Program-made: the position numbers and the translations under genes
The notes under the pieces: generated by a model
What the model was told of the DNA's origin: nothing
The model's input: the letters and a program-made list of their open reading frames with translations, nothing else
The model's database searches: none
Assembly (NCBI GenBank): GCA_030603665.1
Contig: JAUVXJ010000002.1
Location: 248,001-312,000, forward strand
DNA: 64,000 nt
Reading direction: 5' to 3'
Source: Chloroflexota bacterium
Lineage (GTDB): Bacteria; Chloroflexota; Anaerolineae; UBA7937; B3-Chlor
Shown: positions 40,954 to 50,172 of the stretch, one piece after another
Layout: each line of letters begins with the position of its first letter
How positions within the stretch are numbered: position 1 is the stretch's first letter

Positions 40954-41291
40954 TCAGAAATCCTCTCTCTCTTCGGCGATTCTTGCACTTTCCACTCTTT
41001 CCTCTATCTCGGACACGTATTGATTGATCCAGCGTCGTACGTTCTCGTTCTCCTCTTCCTCCAGGAAGTTGAGTAGCTCTTGCTCCTTGTTCTGGAGATG
41101 CAGGCTCTCGGGTCCAACCCAGCCCTCAGCTGAGAAGTTGGCAGTCAGGGTACGACGCACATCCTCTCGTGCTCCATACCGAACCAGGACTTCACGTGCC
41201 CAGCAAATCCTGCCTTCTTCGCGGAAAAGGAGTTTCGGCACAAAGCTGGCAAGGTACCAGGCACGGCGATCAGCAGGGTGGCCATGGATCT
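40954..41291 (-). pseudogene. Truncated gene fragment, helical C-terminus
   Basis: The readable frame starts without a proper start codon just after a stop at about 41292 (HPADRRAWYLASFVPKLLF) and continues to the stop at 40954. A conservative internal GTG start at 41241 would give 95 residues ending ENVRRWINQYVSEIEERVES. The pattern is that of the C-terminal end of larger helical proteins, so the 5' part seems lost. The break coincides with the beginning of the opposite-strand iron-sulfur gene. Confidence 0.5.
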
Positions 41292-41991
41292 AATAACGCG
41301 GCATAACGTGGTTGTGGCCATGGACAACGACACCGTGCGCAGCGTCTCTGCAGAGGCCCTTCCCTTGACTCAACAGGGGACGTCTCACGGACCATGCAAG
41401 GGTGGCAACTTCCCGCAGAAAAGCCTTGCTGTGCTACTGGGCCTTGGGCAGTTCGGCGTCTGCAGAATCGTAATCCGGGATGAAGCCGCGGCCACTGGCG
41501 TGGAGAGATTCGTAGGCCCCTTGAGATCGATTATCATCTTCGACAAGAGCGATTTGAGCACGGACGGAGAAGCTGGTGTATTCTATCCCGGTCAGGCTTG
41601 GCGTGACTTCCTTCTCAGGCTGAGCGATTTCACCGACACTGATCCCCAGATCAACAGATATCGGTCCTGCACCTACGTACCCTCCGATGAACAGGGATGC
41701 ACCGAATGCGTACGAAGCTGCCCCACGGGGGCTCAGGCCATGTCAGTTCCGACCCCAGAAGGGAGATACTCGTCGCAGATTGCGAATCAACAGCACAGAT
41801 TCTGGGAGGGCAAACTGCAGTTTGATTTCGGCCGATGCCTTGACGAGAGATCCCAGATGGCCACTATGTTTCCAGAGTGGTCTTGTGCGCGCTGCCTGAC
41901 AAGCTGCGCGGCCCAAGGCAAGAGACGCGCATCCACTGTGGACGACTACCAGCAGAAGATGCGTGAGCTCAGTTTACACGGAAGTGACTAG
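41278..41991 (+). CDS. 4Fe-4S protein, QueG/reductive dehalogenase-like, likely N-truncated
   Basis: A 237-residue frame. The N-terminal half resembles the substrate-binding region of double-cluster proteins (NFPQKSLAVLLGLGQFGVCR, GPLRSIIIFDKSDL). The ferredoxin motif CTECVRSCPTGA is near residue 140, and a second Cys set (CARCLTSC) follows near 203. Related proteins are usually longer at the N-terminus. No ribosome site precedes GTG 41278 and the frame is open well upstream, so the gene has probably lost its start. The stop is intact. Confidence 0.6.
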   Translation: MAMDLITRHNVVVAMDNDTVRSVSAEALPLTQQGTSHGPCKGGNFPQKSLAVLLGLGQFGVCRIVIRDEAAATGVERFVGPLRSIIIFDKSDLSTDGEAGVFYPGQAWRDFLLRLSDFTDTDPQINRYRSCTYVPSDEQGCTECVRSCPTGAQAMSVPTPEGRYSSQIANQQHRFWEGKLQFDFGRCLDERSQMATMFPEWSCARCLTSCAAQGKRRASTVDDYQQKMRELSLHGSD

Positions 41992-43772: not shown

Positions 43773-43787
43773 GGTTCGTCTTCCCCC

Positions 43788-43925
43788 TCACCGATTCGCC
43801 TGGGCGGCCTCCAACTGCCCCTCATCGCGGTCGCAGAGCGTGACCCCCGCAAAGTCAGGATCCAACATGGCATTGAAGGCTGCCGCTGGACCCATCAGCC
43901 CGTTGCCAAGAACCAGGATTCTCAT
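43788..43925 (-). pseudogene. N-terminal shard of a saccharopine dehydrogenase-like gene
   Basis: From ATG 43925, 45 codons (MRILVLGNGLMGPAAAFNAM and on) match the N-terminus of the intact enzyme encoded at 49000-50172 with high identity, then end at a stop. The Rossmann start GNGLMG is intact but the rest of the enzyme is missing. Confidence 0.85.
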
Positions 43926-44234
43926 TCACTTACCTCTCTTCATATCCAGTCCGGGCTGAGTGTCCAAGCCGGCTCGCGCCTGCTGGGGACCGTCTACAGA
44001 GAATCGGCTCACTCGTTGCCGCGTGTCGCGTTGGCAGGCACGCGCTGGCAAATGTTGGCGAACTCTGCTACGATCATTGTAGTGCGTTCGCACAGATGCC
44101 GCTAGGGAGGGTCATGAGCGCCGCAAGAGCCATCAATCCTCGTCCTCCTTCTTTCTGGGGAATGCCTCTTTGTTTCATTGTGCGTTCTCTCTGCCTCCAT
44201 CATCGTGTGACAACCCATCTTTCACCGAGGATTC
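43926..44234. other. Intergenic at the left edge of the AT-richer insert
   Basis: The stretch between the shard and the Cys-rich gene holds no recognised gene. Base composition visibly shifts toward AT near 44.15 kb. No repeats or target-site duplications are clear at this edge. Confidence 0.35.
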
Positions 44235-46511
44235 ATGTTCTTGAAAGATCGCTTCAGTACTCAGAAAGAAGGTAATACCGTGAGACAAGACACGGTAGTG
44301 CGATGTCTCTGTCTTTCTTTGGTGTTGTTCATCGTGGGTTCGATTGGTTCTGGGCCCAACTCTGTAGACGCAAATGGAAGTACGAATAGAGCAGCTGCAA
44401 GGCAGATAACGTGTAGTGATAGCGATGGTGGCCTGAACTATGGTGTTAAGGGCTGTGTCAAGGGAAGCCGCTGGATCCGTGGTGTATACAGAACCTACGA
44501 ATACTGTGACAATTGTGCAGGAGGAGACTATCGGGGCTATCTGAAGGAATGGTATTGTGACGGAAACCTACCCACACCCAGATACGAAGAATGCTCAGAC
44601 GGCTGCAAAGATGAATGCAGGGATGGTGTTTGCATCAGGTGTGCCAATGGTGTTGTTTCAACCTGTAGTGCTGATGCCAAAATCGGTTGGGGGAGTTGGT
44701 GTACCTCGATTGACAGGTTGTGCTGTTTTGAGCCCAGTTGTGTGGACCGTAGAGGTGATGACTGCTATCCAGTACACAGTGCCTATAGTCAGAGTGACAC
44801 TTATGTTGACAAGATTGCTTATTGTCTTCCCACACTCAAATGGGTTGATTGTGATGTCGGTCCTTGGAGGTGCAACGACGCGAATGATTGTGCTGGTGCT
44901 GTACGAAACTGCCCTAATGACAACTGTTGGGTTCACTCTGGAGAAGTGAACGTCGGAGAGTATCCGAGCCAGACTGCTGCACAATGTTGCGGGGACGACA
45001 TTAGAGAAGTGTATAGTGGTGGCACAGATGAGACCTATGCTTGCTGCGACGGGAGGGACGGTCATGGCAGAAGGCTTGATGGTCCAGAATGTGTCATAGA
45101 CGGAGTCTGCAGAGACAGGACAGTTGCCACGGAGATCTGCGATGATAATATCGACAATGATTGTGACGGGATTGTCGATGAGATTACGAATGAAATCTGC
45201 TATGACAACGCCGATAACGATTGTGATGGCAGTATAGATGAGATTACAGATGAAATATGCGAAGATGATACTGACAATGATTGCGACGGATTCGTAGATG
45301 AATGGTGTGGAGGATGTGCTGAGTCTGATGATGGTAGAGACTACTACGACAGTGGTACTACCATAGGCTTGTCCATTTCAGGGGTTGAGTACGAAACTAC
45401 GGAGAGAGCCGATTATTGTGTGAACAGCAATACACTTCAGGAGTTCTACTGTGATGGCAACTTTGTGGAAGGAGAAGAAGTTGACTGCCATTACGGATGC
45501 CTAGATGGCGCGTGTACCAAGGGGAAAGTGATTCTCTTGAGTTGGGATGGAACCCAAAGAAACCATCTGGCAGAGCTTCTTGCTGCAGGAAAGCTGCCCA
45601 ATCTCCAAAGACTGATTGATGAAGGCCAAATGAGAGACATGGTCATTTTTACGGAAGACTGTCGTTGTGCCAACGACGGCGACAACTACCATACCCTAAC
45701 GGGCCCAGCACACGCCGCAATGCTGACCGGTTATGGATTTCCTGAAACCATGAATCATGCCAACAGGTCAAAGGGTGTAGGAGGGGCGCCAGGAGAATAT
45801 GAATTCAACGACTGCCCAGAATACTGCCCAGAAGGCAGCCCTGTTGAATGCTTTGGACAGCTAGGACCGAACCCTATCCCCAAGGGCTATACCATCTTTG
45901 AAAGACTGAAAGAATTCGATCCCATTATCAAAACAGCTCTTATTACTGGAAAAGACCATCAGTTCTTCCCGTTCCCGGCTTTCACACATGCTGCACCGGC
46001 TTCATGCCACAGCCAATTCTGTGTGTTTGGTGATGGCAATGCAATCGACACCTGCTATCCGACCACTGACGATTCGGAGTATGTCACACCGAGGCTCTTG
46101 GCGTTCATCGAAGAGAACCAGCACTCTCCCTTCTTCCTTTTTGGCCACTATGGGGGACCTGACGTAGAGGGACATATCTACGGGGAGAATTCGCCAGAAT
46201 ACACCAATTCCATCATTAGCGATGATGTGGGAACAGGAGAAATTGTCCGAAAACTGAAGGATCTGGGCATCTACGAAGACACAATCATCATGGTGACCAC
46301 AGACCACGGGTTTGTCGAAAACCGATATGGTCACCATTCGTGTCAGTCATCGACGAAGAATGTCTGGATTGTGAGCAACAGAAGAAGGGTGATTGATAAC
46401 CAAGATGCTATCGCCAAACAGACTTCGATCGTTCCAACAATCTTCGACATTTTTGGCATTGACAAAGATGTCAGTCCTCCTTTTGCTGGGCAATCCTTGT
46501 TAGTTCCATAG
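44235..46511 (+). CDS. Cys-rich exported protein with alkaline-phosphatase-fold domain
   Basis: A protein of up to 758 residues with a signal peptide (CLSLVLFIVGSIG), a Cys-rich N-terminal half containing two SDSDGG/YCDGN-type modules (about 55-130 and 350-430), three 20-residue MopE-like repeats (DNIDNDCDGIVDE type, about 300-357) and a C-terminal domain of the type I phosphodiesterase/alkaline phosphatase superfamily (LLSWDGTQRNHLAELLAAGK near 440, TTDHGFVENRYGHH near 690). GTG 44280, preceded by AGAAGG, is an alternative start. The gene is visibly AT-richer than its surroundings and suggests transfer. Confidence 0.75.
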   Translation: MFLKDRFSTQKEGNTVRQDTVVRCLCLSLVLFIVGSIGSGPNSVDANGSTNRAAARQITCSDSDGGLNYGVKGCVKGSRWIRGVYRTYEYCDNCAGGDYRGYLKEWYCDGNLPTPRYEECSDGCKDECRDGVCIRCANGVVSTCSADAKIGWGSWCTSIDRLCCFEPSCVDRRGDDCYPVHSAYSQSDTYVDKIAYCLPTLKWVDCDVGPWRCNDANDCAGAVRNCPNDNCWVHSGEVNVGEYPSQTAAQCCGDDIREVYSGGTDETYACCDGRDGHGRRLDGPECVIDGVCRDRTVATEICDDNIDNDCDGIVDEITNEICYDNADNDCDGSIDEITDEICEDDTDNDCDGFVDEWCGGCAESDDGRDYYDSGTTIGLSISGVEYETTERADYCVNSNTLQEFYCDGNFVEGEEVDCHYGCLDGACTKGKVILLSWDGTQRNHLAELLAAGKLPNLQRLIDEGQMRDMVIFTEDCRCANDGDNYHTLTGPAHAAMLTGYGFPETMNHANRSKGVGGAPGEYEFNDCPEYCPEGSPVECFGQLGPNPIPKGYTIFERLKEFDPIIKTALITGKDHQFFPFPAFTHAAPASCHSQFCVFGDGNAIDTCYPTTDDSEYVTPRLLAFIEENQHSPFFLFGHYGGPDVEGHIYGENSPEYTNSIISDDVGTGEIVRKLKDLGIYEDTIIMVTTDHGFVENRYGHHSCQSSTKNVWIVSNRRRVIDNQDAIAKQTSIVPTIFDIFGIDKDVSPPFAGQSLLVP
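45132..45302 (+). repeat. Three tandem 60-bp units coding DNDCDG repeats
   Basis: Units start at 45132, 45192 and 45252 (the last shortened) and encode EICxDNxDNDCDGxxDE. The Asp-dense loops resemble calcium or copper-binding MopE-type repeats. Confidence 0.8.
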
Positions 46512-46671
46512 TGTGTTCTTGGTGCTTCCCTCATAGTCTGATAGGACATATCCTACAGAAGATCGGTAAGTCCATTACGTGAAAGACTGTTTCAAGAAAC
46601 AGCAACACGGTGGCACTATGATAGAAGACTTGAGAATGCTGTTTGGTGCTCTGCAATACTGGGTTTGATCA
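46512..46671. other. Intergenic in the AT-richer insert
   Basis: No gene is recognised; base composition is AT-richer than outside. Confidence 0.35.
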
Positions 46672-46990
46672 GTGTTGCTGGGATCTTCTCTAGCCGAGAC
46701 TTCCAGAGGTGCTAAGGTTCCTGAGGGGGAAAGCGATGTTGAGCTTGGTGTTTCATCATCTCCACAAGCGGCTCAAAGCCATGTCGGAGAAGATTTGAGT
46801 GGAAAAATGACTTGCACCGATACTGATGACGAGCACCAAGTACTAGATGCCCAGCTATGTCGGTGGCCGCTGTTGGATTGAACGAAGAGACACAGCCCAC
46901 GAATACTTCGACGAATGTACGAAATGGGATGAACACAAAGGTGACTCAGAGCACTGGTATTGTCATGGGAACACACCTGCAGGCCCGTTC
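46672..46990 (+). pseudogene. Frameshifted second Cys module, truncated
   Basis: The frame from 46672 reaches TCTDTDDEHQ at about 46810 and then stops at 46880. A shift near 46855 restores the module (GGRCWIERRDTAHEYFDECT, then HWYCHGNTP) found in the intact Cys-rich gene. The coding sequence ends near 46990, where it meets the saccharopine dehydrogenase-like shards. It is a broken neighbour of the 44235 gene. Confidence 0.65.
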
Positions 46991-47490
46991 GCCTTGCCGG
47001 AGTGTGACCCGGGGATAGAGCACCGCGTCAACGACGTCCTTGGGCGCCACCCACACTCCACCGACCTCCAACCGCTCTTCGCTGAGCAGCCCCAGATCCT
47101 TGAGCACCGTCACCTTGGCCGCGTCTAACCGTCAATCCAGATCGCTCACACTGGTGGGCGGCGATGGTGCTCCCCTGAACCAGTTGTACCGACTGATCGC
47201 CCCACCTTTACCCCGTCCTTCCTGATAGGGAGCTAGCACTCGCCAGTCGATGACTAGGACCGGGCCACTGATGACCTGCCCTGGCGTGAGCATACCTTCT
47301 GACTCGATCTCGCCTCTCGCGATCAAACGGGCCACGATGGCCCCGGTGAAGGCCGTTGTCCGGGCCATGGATGTGAAGCCCACCACGTCGTCGTAACGAT
47401 CCACCATTTCCATCTTGAGGCGGCAGGGAGCGCTTTCCTACTTCCCTATCGCCTCCACGCGAAAGAGGGTCAGATCCCGCTTCCGAAACG
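46985..47490 (-). pseudogene. Two C-terminal shards of saccharopine dehydrogenase-like genes
   Basis: From 47490 down to about 47235, the frame reads TLFRVEAIGK, then a stop, then MEMVDRYDDVVGFTSMARTT up to QVISGPVL, matching the C-terminus of the intact enzyme. From about 47127 to 46985 the segment AAKVTVLKDLGLLSEERLEV matches the part that should come before it. The order is reversed, so at least two copies were broken and recombined. Neither shard has a start codon in context. Confidence 0.8.
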
Positions 47491-47495
47491 ACATG

Positions 47496-48884
47496 CTAGA
47501 CTGGCATGGTCGCGCCACGCGGTACGATAGTGCCGCTGCCAGGCTGGCCAACAATCTCGCGATCACGGAAGACGACTTCGCCCCGGCGCAGCGTAACATC
47601 AGGCCAGCCGGTCACCTGCCACCCATCGAACGGCGAGTAGTCGCAGTTGGATTTCAGCATGGAGCCCTCGATCGTGAGCGTGAGATCTGGGTCGAAAACT
47701 ACCAAGTCTGCGTCGCTGCCAACGGCAATCGTGCCCTTGCGTGGATAGAGGCCAAAAAGCTTGGCGGCGTTCGTGGAGGTCACCTGGACAAGGCGGCCTA
47801 GCGTGATGCGACCGGACCGCACTCCTTCCGAGTAGAGCATCGGCAGCATAGTATCCAGGTCCGCAACTCCCGGTCGCAGGTTGGCAATATCAAGGCCCGG
47901 ATCGAGCTTGGCAGCCAATGACCAGGGAAAATGGTCAGTACAGACGGTATGCACGACGCCCTGACGAATGCCAGCCCACAGGCTGTCGACATCCTGCTGC
48001 TCGCGCAGCGGCGGCATCCCTACGTACTTTGCCCCATCTTCGTCCTCAAAACGCTCGCGAGTGAGGTGCAGGTAAAGCGGCCGTGTTTCGACATAGACTG
48101 GTAGACCACGGGACTGGGCCTCGGCGCATACGGCTAAGGCGCGCGCCGATGATAAGTGAACGATGTATACAGGCGCACCTGTTGCCTCAGAAAAGGCCAC
48201 CGCCCTTTCCGTAGCCACGACCTCCGAGATCACAGGGCGACTCTCTGCATAATAGCGGAGCGAGGACTTGCCCTCCGCCACCAGCCGTGCTGTCGCGTCG
48301 TCAATCAGGGCAAGGTCCTCGCAATGGATCAGCGTTATCACCCCGCTGTCACCGGCACGCCGCATGGCCTCAACATAGCCGCCAACCTGAGAGTCGAAAC
48401 TCGGGAAGACTGTGAACACCTTGATGCTGTTGCAGCCCACGTCGAGCAACTTAGGGATTTCGTCCAGCACCTGCGGGGTAACGTGCTCAAGCACCGGGTG
48501 CAAGAAGAGGTCGGCGATGGTCTCCTGACGGGCCTTGGCCGCTTCGCGCTCCATCCCGGCCAACGGTGTTTCGCCCGATGCTAGAAAAGTCATGTTGCCA
48601 AGCGTCGTGATACCACCCGATAGCGCGGCAGCGGAGCCGCTGACAAAGCCATCCACCCACTTGGGATCATCGTCTTCTGCTTCTGGGGGGCCCGTCAGGT
48701 GTACATGCGCATCTATGCCACCCGGCAGAACAAACTTGCCCGTTGCGTCAATCTCCAGGTGTCCAGCAAGTACACCCCCAATCTGGGCTATGATACCATT
48801 CGAGATTCCGATATCAGCACAGCCGATCGAGCCAGCAGCGCTCACAATCTCGCCGTGACGAATCACCACGTCCAACATAGCCAT
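47496..48884 (-). CDS. Hydantoinase/dihydropyrimidinase family amidohydrolase
   Basis: A 462-residue amidohydrolase that opens cyclic amides such as hydantoins, dihydropyrimidines or allantoin. Metal ligands are visible in DAHVHLTG (about 60), the carboxylated Lys in NSIKVFTV (about 153), His in TLIHCED and VHLSSA, and Asp in CTDHFPW. The D-form signature fits D-hydantoinase, but the exact substrate is unknown. It follows the saccharopine dehydrogenase-like gene by 115 nt and ends next to the shards at 46985-47490. Confidence 0.88.
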   Translation of the reverse strand: MAMLDVVIRHGEIVSAAGSIGCADIGISNGIIAQIGGVLAGHLEIDATGKFVLPGGIDAHVHLTGPPEAEDDDPKWVDGFVSGSAAALSGGITTLGNMTFLASGETPLAGMEREAAKARQETIADLFLHPVLEHVTPQVLDEIPKLLDVGCNSIKVFTVFPSFDSQVGGYVEAMRRAGDSGVITLIHCEDLALIDDATARLVAEGKSSLRYYAESRPVISEVVATERAVAFSEATGAPVYIVHLSSARALAVCAEAQSRGLPVYVETRPLYLHLTRERFEDEDGAKYVGMPPLREQQDVDSLWAGIRQGVVHTVCTDHFPWSLAAKLDPGLDIANLRPGVADLDTMLPMLYSEGVRSGRITLGRLVQVTSTNAAKLFGLYPRKGTIAVGSDADLVVFDPDLTLTIEGSMLKSNCDYSPFDGWQVTGWPDVTLRRGEVVFRDREIVGQPGSGTIVPRGATMPV

Positions 48885-48999
48885 GTGACACTCCTTCGGA
48901 AGATTCTCATTTCATGTTGGCGCACCCGGAATTGGATACGCCTACTGATTGTGGATGGAGCTGGCGCTCCCCTGCTGCATCGGTGGCGGCCTAACGGCC

Positions 49000-50172
49000 T
49001 CAAGCATCAAGCGTGTCCGTCGTCTCCTCGAAGCGAACGTCGACCGCGGCCAACTCCTCAAGCAATCTATCGAGCAGCGGACCGGTGATCACTTGCTCGG
49101 GCGTCAACAAACCCTTGGCCCCGATCTCACCTTTCGCGATCATGCGTGCGATGATGGCCCCGGTGAAGGCCGTGGTGCGGGCCATGGAGGTGAAACCCAG
49201 CGTCTCGTCGTACCGATCCACCATCTCCATCTTCAGGCGGACGGGAGTCCCGTCCTTCCTGCCCATGGCCTCCACGCGGAAGAGGGTCATCTCCCGCTCT
49301 CCCTCCTCCAGCCTGACGCGGGGATACAGCGCGGCATCGACCAGTCGTTTGGGTGCCACCTTGACGCCGTCCACCTCGACCGGCTCCTCGCTGAGCAGCC
49401 CCAACTCCTTGAGCACCGTTACCTTGGCGGCGTAGCCCGGCCACCGAATCGTCTTCTGCGTGCCTGCCTTCAAGCCCTTCAAAGCCGCCAGGTCCATCAG
49501 CCAGGGCATGAAGCCCTCGTGCCAGGCCTCGCACTCGCCGACACCTACGAAGGACACCGCTTCCACCCCGGAGTAGCGAGGCACCAACTTCAGTTCGCCG
49601 TTCTCCACAACGTGGGCATCCGCCTCCCTCACGGGCAGATGCCGTCCGCCGAAGACAATCTTGTAGCCCAGGGGTGGGGTGGGGTTCTCCGGAATGCCGC
49701 CGCACTTGATGTGTAGCTCGTCCACCTCGTCCAGCTTCTCCACCAGGTATCGAGCCATGATCTCCGTCAAGCCCGGCTCCACGCCACATCCCAGGATCAC
49801 CAGCCCTCTTGCCGTTTCCACCTCTTGCCTAAGCCCGGGAAGCTCCACTTCCGAAGGGCGGGCAAGGTCCACTATAGATCTGCCGGCTGCCACTGCCGCC
49901 CTGATGGCCAACGCAACAGCGTCCCTCGGCAGAGCGCCCACAATGCTATCGAAATCCGCCATCAACCTGGTCGCTGCGCTCTGATCGTCCAAGTCGAGGG
50001 CTACGGTGCAGAGCTTTTCACCGCCCTGCATGCCGCGCAGTTTGGCCTGCGCAGCGTCCAAATGCCCGTGATCGATGTCGCAGAGCGCCACCCGTGATAC
50101 ATCGGGATCCGACATGGCGTTGAACGCCGCCGCCGGCCCCATCAGCCCGCTACCCAGGATCAGGATTCTCAT
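49000..50172 (-). CDS. Saccharopine dehydrogenase-like oxidoreductase
   Basis: A 390-residue NAD(P)-dependent enzyme. The Rossmann motif is GSGLMG at residues 7-12, followed by an ALCDIDH acidic end that favours NAD over NADP. The C-terminal domain contains TSMARTTAFTGAI and LLTPEQVITGPL. Relatives act on amino-acid adducts such as saccharopine or on opine-like compounds, and the actual substrate cannot be stated. Shards of closely related copies lie at 43788 and 46985, showing past amplification. It belongs to the lower end of the hydantoin/peptide cluster. Confidence 0.85.
   Translation of the reverse strand: MRILILGSGLMGPAAAFNAMSDPDVSRVALCDIDHGHLDAAQAKLRGMQGGEKLCTVALDLDDQSAATRLMADFDSIVGALPRDAVALAIRAAVAAGRSIVDLARPSEVELPGLRQEVETARGLVILGCGVEPGLTEIMARYLVEKLDEVDELHIKCGGIPENPTPPLGYKIVFGGRHLPVREADAHVVENGELKLVPRYSGVEAVSFVGVGECEAWHEGFMPWLMDLAALKGLKAGTQKTIRWPGYAAKVTVLKELGLLSEEPVEVDGVKVAPKRLVDAALYPRVRLEEGEREMTLFRVEAMGRKDGTPVRLKMEMVDRYDETLGFTSMARTTAFTGAIIARMIAKGEIGAKGLLTPEQVITGPLLDRLLEELAAVDVRFEETTDTLDA

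Follow-up and report, generated by a model that had tools for sequence, protein, structure and literature searches.

The window analysed here, 64,000 nucleotides at contig positions 248001-312000 of a Chloroflexota bacterium, contains a segment of about 2.9 kb (44142 to about 46990; 48% GC) that, taken as a whole, is best explained as a horizontally acquired piece of a tandem gene array, carrying one intact gene for a putative secreted two-metal phosphoesterase, a reading to which we give a probability of roughly 0.7. The foreign origin itself is likely because the composition of the segment departs from its surroundings, the cysteine-rich (Cys) module that it encodes is absent in relatives of the host and the best match of its enzyme domain lies in another phylum. 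The segment appears ordinary in kind, a likely case of horizontal gene transfer with one uncatalogued domain and not a system of a new type. Its interest is as a single instance in which a modular surface enzyme has probably passed between phyla, and it points to a small six-Cys domain that recurs on Patescibacterial surface-type proteins. The features of the segment and its flanks are as follows.

43786 to 43948, reverse strand: left-flank shard with residues 1-46 of saccharopine dehydrogenase (alignment to the intact copy)
44142 to 44210, forward strand: gene 0, decayed last ~12 codons and downstream spacer of a lost upstream copy (alignment)
44235 to 46511, forward strand: gene 1, the intact, likely foreign gene (open reading frame; GC 0.48, GC3 0.48; Pfam)
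44412 to 44633, forward strand: Cys module 1 of gene 1, residues 60-133 (alignment with Patescibacterial modules)
45132 to 45311, forward strand: three tandem MopE-type DNDCDG repeats (PF11617) of 60 nt each (Pfam, repeat analysis)
45315 to 45515, forward strand: Cys module 2, residues 361-427 (all-beta AlphaFold2 model, pLDDT 95.9)
45528 to 46508, forward strand: predicted NPP-type domain of the alkaline phosphatase superfamily, residues 432-758 (Pfam, catalytic residues, AlphaFold2, Foldseek, PDB profile search)
46500 to 46990, forward strand: gene 2, frameshifted 5' part of the next copy (three-frame translation; alignment to 44169-44635)
46984 to 47124, reverse strand: right-junction shard with residues 247-293 of saccharopine dehydrogenase (the strict gapped alignment starts at 47005)
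47256 to 47481, reverse strand: saccharopine dehydrogenase shard, residues 290-366 (alignment to the intact copy)
49000 to 50172, reverse strand: intact saccharopine-dehydrogenase-like gene, the reference for the shards (open reading frame, Pfam)

The surroundings form a catabolic cluster that encodes hydantoinase A/B, an M29-like peptidase, a dihydropyrimidinase, the saccharopine-dehydrogenase-like enzyme and a peptide transporter. Against this setting the segment stands out, as the first-pass annotation had noticed in calling the gene at 44235 AT-richer than its neighbours: the GC content of 44235-46984 is 0.482, compared with a mean of 0.601 elsewhere (z -8.7; 553 other stretches of equal size, standard deviation 0.0136 or about 1.4%, minimum 0.575), and the GC3 of the intact gene is 0.48, compared with 0.65-0.81 in the recognizable genes of the window. 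A composition equal to that of the flanks had been named beforehand as evidence against a foreign insert; the flanks proved to differ.

Gene 1 is accompanied by remnants of further copies on both sides. Downstream, the frameshifted partner previously noted at 46672 turned out to be a truncated tandem copy of gene 1, with 46500-46966 aligning with 44169-44635 at a score of 121 (shuffle mean 39, maximum 67). Read in shifting frames, gene 2 gives this second copy's signal peptide and Cys module 1, before a dehydrogenase shard cuts it off after about 115 codons. The left-hand remnant, gene 0, is new, the right-hand one alone having been noticed in the first reading: 44142-44210 aligns to 46474-46541, the 3' end of gene 1 and its spacer, with a score of 51, whereas 1000 shuffles did not exceed 28 and 180 other stretches of the window did not exceed 27. 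From these two alignments it follows that the left edge of the segment lies within the final codons of one copy and its right edge within a later one, with one whole copy in between. The segment therefore looks like part of a tandem gene array, with a unit length of about 2332 bp.

The dehydrogenase shards had been taken to flank the insert in a rearranged zone, and they are indeed real and present on both sides, the three of them sharing about 70% identity with the intact gene at 49000-50172. Along the minus strand their order is permuted (C-terminal, middle, insert, N-terminal), and for this reason the idea that a single insertion split one saccharopine dehydrogenase gene can be rejected as too simple. 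The simplest reading is that the landing zone is a decayed tandem duplication of dehydrogenase genes with later deletions. The shards at 46984-47124 and 47256-47481 are contiguous in the parent gene, where they meet at codon ~290, and are swapped here, as if a small circle had opened at that codon or tandem copies had been cut back. A comparison with the same-family genome G002 yielded no syntenic empty site, the hydantoinase block at 47494-48951 being all that is shared with it. This block is 86% identical in G002 (L116, 14394-15851) and looks mobile as well, because its context there is wholly different.

The product of gene 1 comprises 758 residues if translation starts at ATG 44235, or 743 from GTG 44280; the latter is the likely start codon, and inspection places an AGAAGG seven bases upstream of it. 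A hydrophobic N-terminus, signal-peptide-like by inspection, is followed by Cys module 1, more Cys-rich sequence, the MopE repeats, Cys module 2 and the phosphatase domain, and 43 of the 52 cysteines fall in the N-terminal 431 residues. The mosaic of Cys modules, MopE-like DNDCDG repeats and an alkaline-phosphatase fold described in the first-pass annotation was thus borne out, with two modules, three repeats and a PF01663 match. The DNDCDG repeats are common to gene 1 and the MopE-type repeat proteins, but in gene 1 they form a small linker part and score just below the Pfam cut-off (PF11617, 26.1 bits over two stretches; cut-off 27).

Given its profile match, two-metal residue set and predicted fold, the C-terminal domain is assigned as an NPP-type phosphoesterase of the alkaline phosphatase superfamily. 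It matches PF01663 with 48.3 bits (cut-off 23), and PF00884 also matched. The positions of the metal ligands and the nucleophile (D438, T487, D643, H647, D690, H691 and H700) are all occupied as expected and are invariant in 36 relatives. The AlphaFold2 model of the domain (pLDDT 86, pTM 0.90) gave 458 Foldseek matches at E <= 0.001, including sulfatases, phosphonate monoester hydrolases and ENPP1, and a sequence profile run against the PDB placed ENPP4 best (2.7e-20), with bacterial NPP also among the best. With the type I phosphodiesterases (bacterial NPP, 2gsn; human ENPP4, 4lqy) the domain shares a predicted core fold, the D/T/D/H/D/H/H two-metal site and the Thr nucleophile; it differs in being short and only distantly matched in sequence, and the protein adds two Cys modules and MopE repeats. 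A type I sulfatase (PF00884) was ruled out, as the C/S-x-P-x-R formylglycine signature is missing and the nucleophile position is T487 in HTLTGPAHAAMLTG. The product is probably a secreted metal-dependent phosphoesterase, as its predicted fold and residues suggest.

Among 79 loci, the closest relative of the phosphatase domain is a Candidatus Aminicenantes protein (JAFGMO010000065.1, L011) with 54% identity; the remainder show about 26-35% where the aligned lengths are comparable, and the higher values tabulated for some of them refer to short C-terminal segments. The best hit thus falls in another phylum; best hits within the same class had been set in advance as counting against a foreign gene. 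The Aminicenantes protein shares a signal-like N-terminus with the gene 1 product, but it has no Cys or MopE modules, ends in a different C-terminal extension and is encoded by a single gene. In the tree the two proteins pair with support 98/50; their clade of four members (100/97) further includes a LysM-fused paralogue of the host genome and a B3_Chlor protein. The paralogue (P0001, contig C6) belongs to the same phosphatase subfamily; it carries three LysM domains in place of Cys modules. Relatives are rare: matches to any part of the gene 1 protein, counted at different thresholds, occurred in 2 of 100 genomes closely related to the host and 2 of 400 from its phylum (both counts including the host genome), 1 of 142 Aminicenantia and 4 of 333 Patescibacteria, a patchy spread that suits repeated transfer. 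Two side observations concern this subfamily. On contig C6 (L007, 475-3180) two adjoining genes have triple LysM N-termini, one of them being the native-GC phosphatase fusion, and a different Cys-rich C-terminal tail is present on related phosphatases, one from a Chloroflexota and one from a deltaproteobacterium (L061, 6067-7125; L069, 5581-7083).

The Cys module has another distribution. A profile search matched 7 of 333 Patescibacteria, none of 332 other Chloroflexota and, in a search run without a positive control, none of 142 Aminicenantia; one further match fell in the class of genome G937. The difference between Patescibacteria and other Chloroflexota gives a Fisher p of 0.015 (0.03 minus the member used in the query), with a profile of three rows, one of them Patescibacterial, that biases it towards Patescibacteria. 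Aligning 13 modules from 8 proteins revealed a conserved Cys pattern, C-x-D-S-D...C...YC...C...C..C, in which the gene 1 modules fit the six-Cys module of Patescibacterial surface-type proteins (L106, L118, L120, L121, L122, L129). In those proteins it is joined, by inspection, to SLH-like, prepilin-like or other surface-type sequence and not to a phosphatase. Five of them (L120, L118, L122, L121, L129) carry up to three copies each. Pfam holds no model for the module, the PDB no sequence relative, and a literature search found nothing on it. AlphaFold2 predicts a small beta domain for the 67-residue module (pLDDT 95.9), with which Foldseek, weak on 67 residues, returned nothing better than E 0.5 from the PDB and a viral library. 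We regard it as an uncatalogued domain.

The mosaic had earlier been described as of DPANN or CPR type. The Patescibacterial counts uphold this for the Cys module; the phosphatase domain is not specially CPR-like, and DPANN sequences were absent from the 79 loci compared above. Judged by sequence comparison, the affinity is split, CPR for the Cys module and Aminicenantes for the enzyme, and searches of Chloroflexota, Aminicenantia and Patescibacteria found no donor with the full Cys-MopE-phosphatase architecture. Carriage by a phage or plasmid was discarded, with no phage or viral contig match; plasmid records gave a weak match in Vibrio alone (33% over 15% of the gene 1 protein).

Could the segment instead be native, a gene of the host's own Chloroflexota family whose composition drifted and to which Cys modules were added? 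The same phosphatase subfamily does occur in the family, in the LysM-fused protein on contig C6 and the B3_Chlor protein, and an AU test did not reject forcing the window protein together with these two (p 0.27). Both, however, have a GC content like that of their own contigs (0.62 and 0.55), their domains are less similar to that of gene 1 (32% by BLASTP, versus 54% for Aminicenantes), and the Cys module was found in none of the other Chloroflexota sampled, so that we give this account little credence. We judge it similarly improbable that DNA of another organism was misjoined into the contig during assembly or binning. The genome (4.19 Mb in 32 contigs; 91% complete, 3.1% contamination) is a metagenome-like bin, and the right junction lies in duplicated, permuted shards, where assemblers err; yet the segment sits well inside a contig of 452,908 bases and is bordered on each side by native-like sequence. 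Shards of one and the same gene family adjoin it directly on the right and at a distance of about 200 bp on the left, and the decay of both outer array copies is what long residence would produce. This same decay bears on the state of gene 1, which might be a dying passenger without function like its two broken neighbours and was found intact in one genome only; its 758-codon open frame and full complement of catalytic residues make this rather unlikely.

Under horizontal acquisition, the Chloroflexota bacterium would have received a fragment of a tandem array of secreted-protein genes, of which one copy survives, flanked by the 3' remnant of one neighbour and the 5' remnant of the next, in a region that appears to be a decayed, rearranged duplication of saccharopine dehydrogenase genes. 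The intact protein would most likely be exported via its signal peptide. Its Cys modules, predicted to be small beta domains and presumably stabilized by disulfides, would together with the Ca-type repeats probably serve as a stalk or binding region outside the cell that presents the C-terminal two-metal enzyme, which may hydrolyse extracellular phosphodiesters or phosphomonoesters by way of Thr487.

A more specific proposal, which we regard as a long shot, is that CPR surface proteins bind hosts or surfaces by means of the Cys module, a disulfide-rich beta domain so far undescribed, and that the Chloroflexota bacterium captured a phosphoesterase-armed tandem array, possibly from an epibiont. 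If true, this would be a gene transfer from episymbiont to host, and the module, if it mediates attachment, would offer a handle on the contact between CPR bacteria and their hosts.

Elsewhere in the window, the open reading frame at 41278-41991 had no Pfam match below 1e-5; it contains ferredoxin-like CxxCxxxCP and CxxC motifs and is perhaps a damaged iron-sulfur protein gene.
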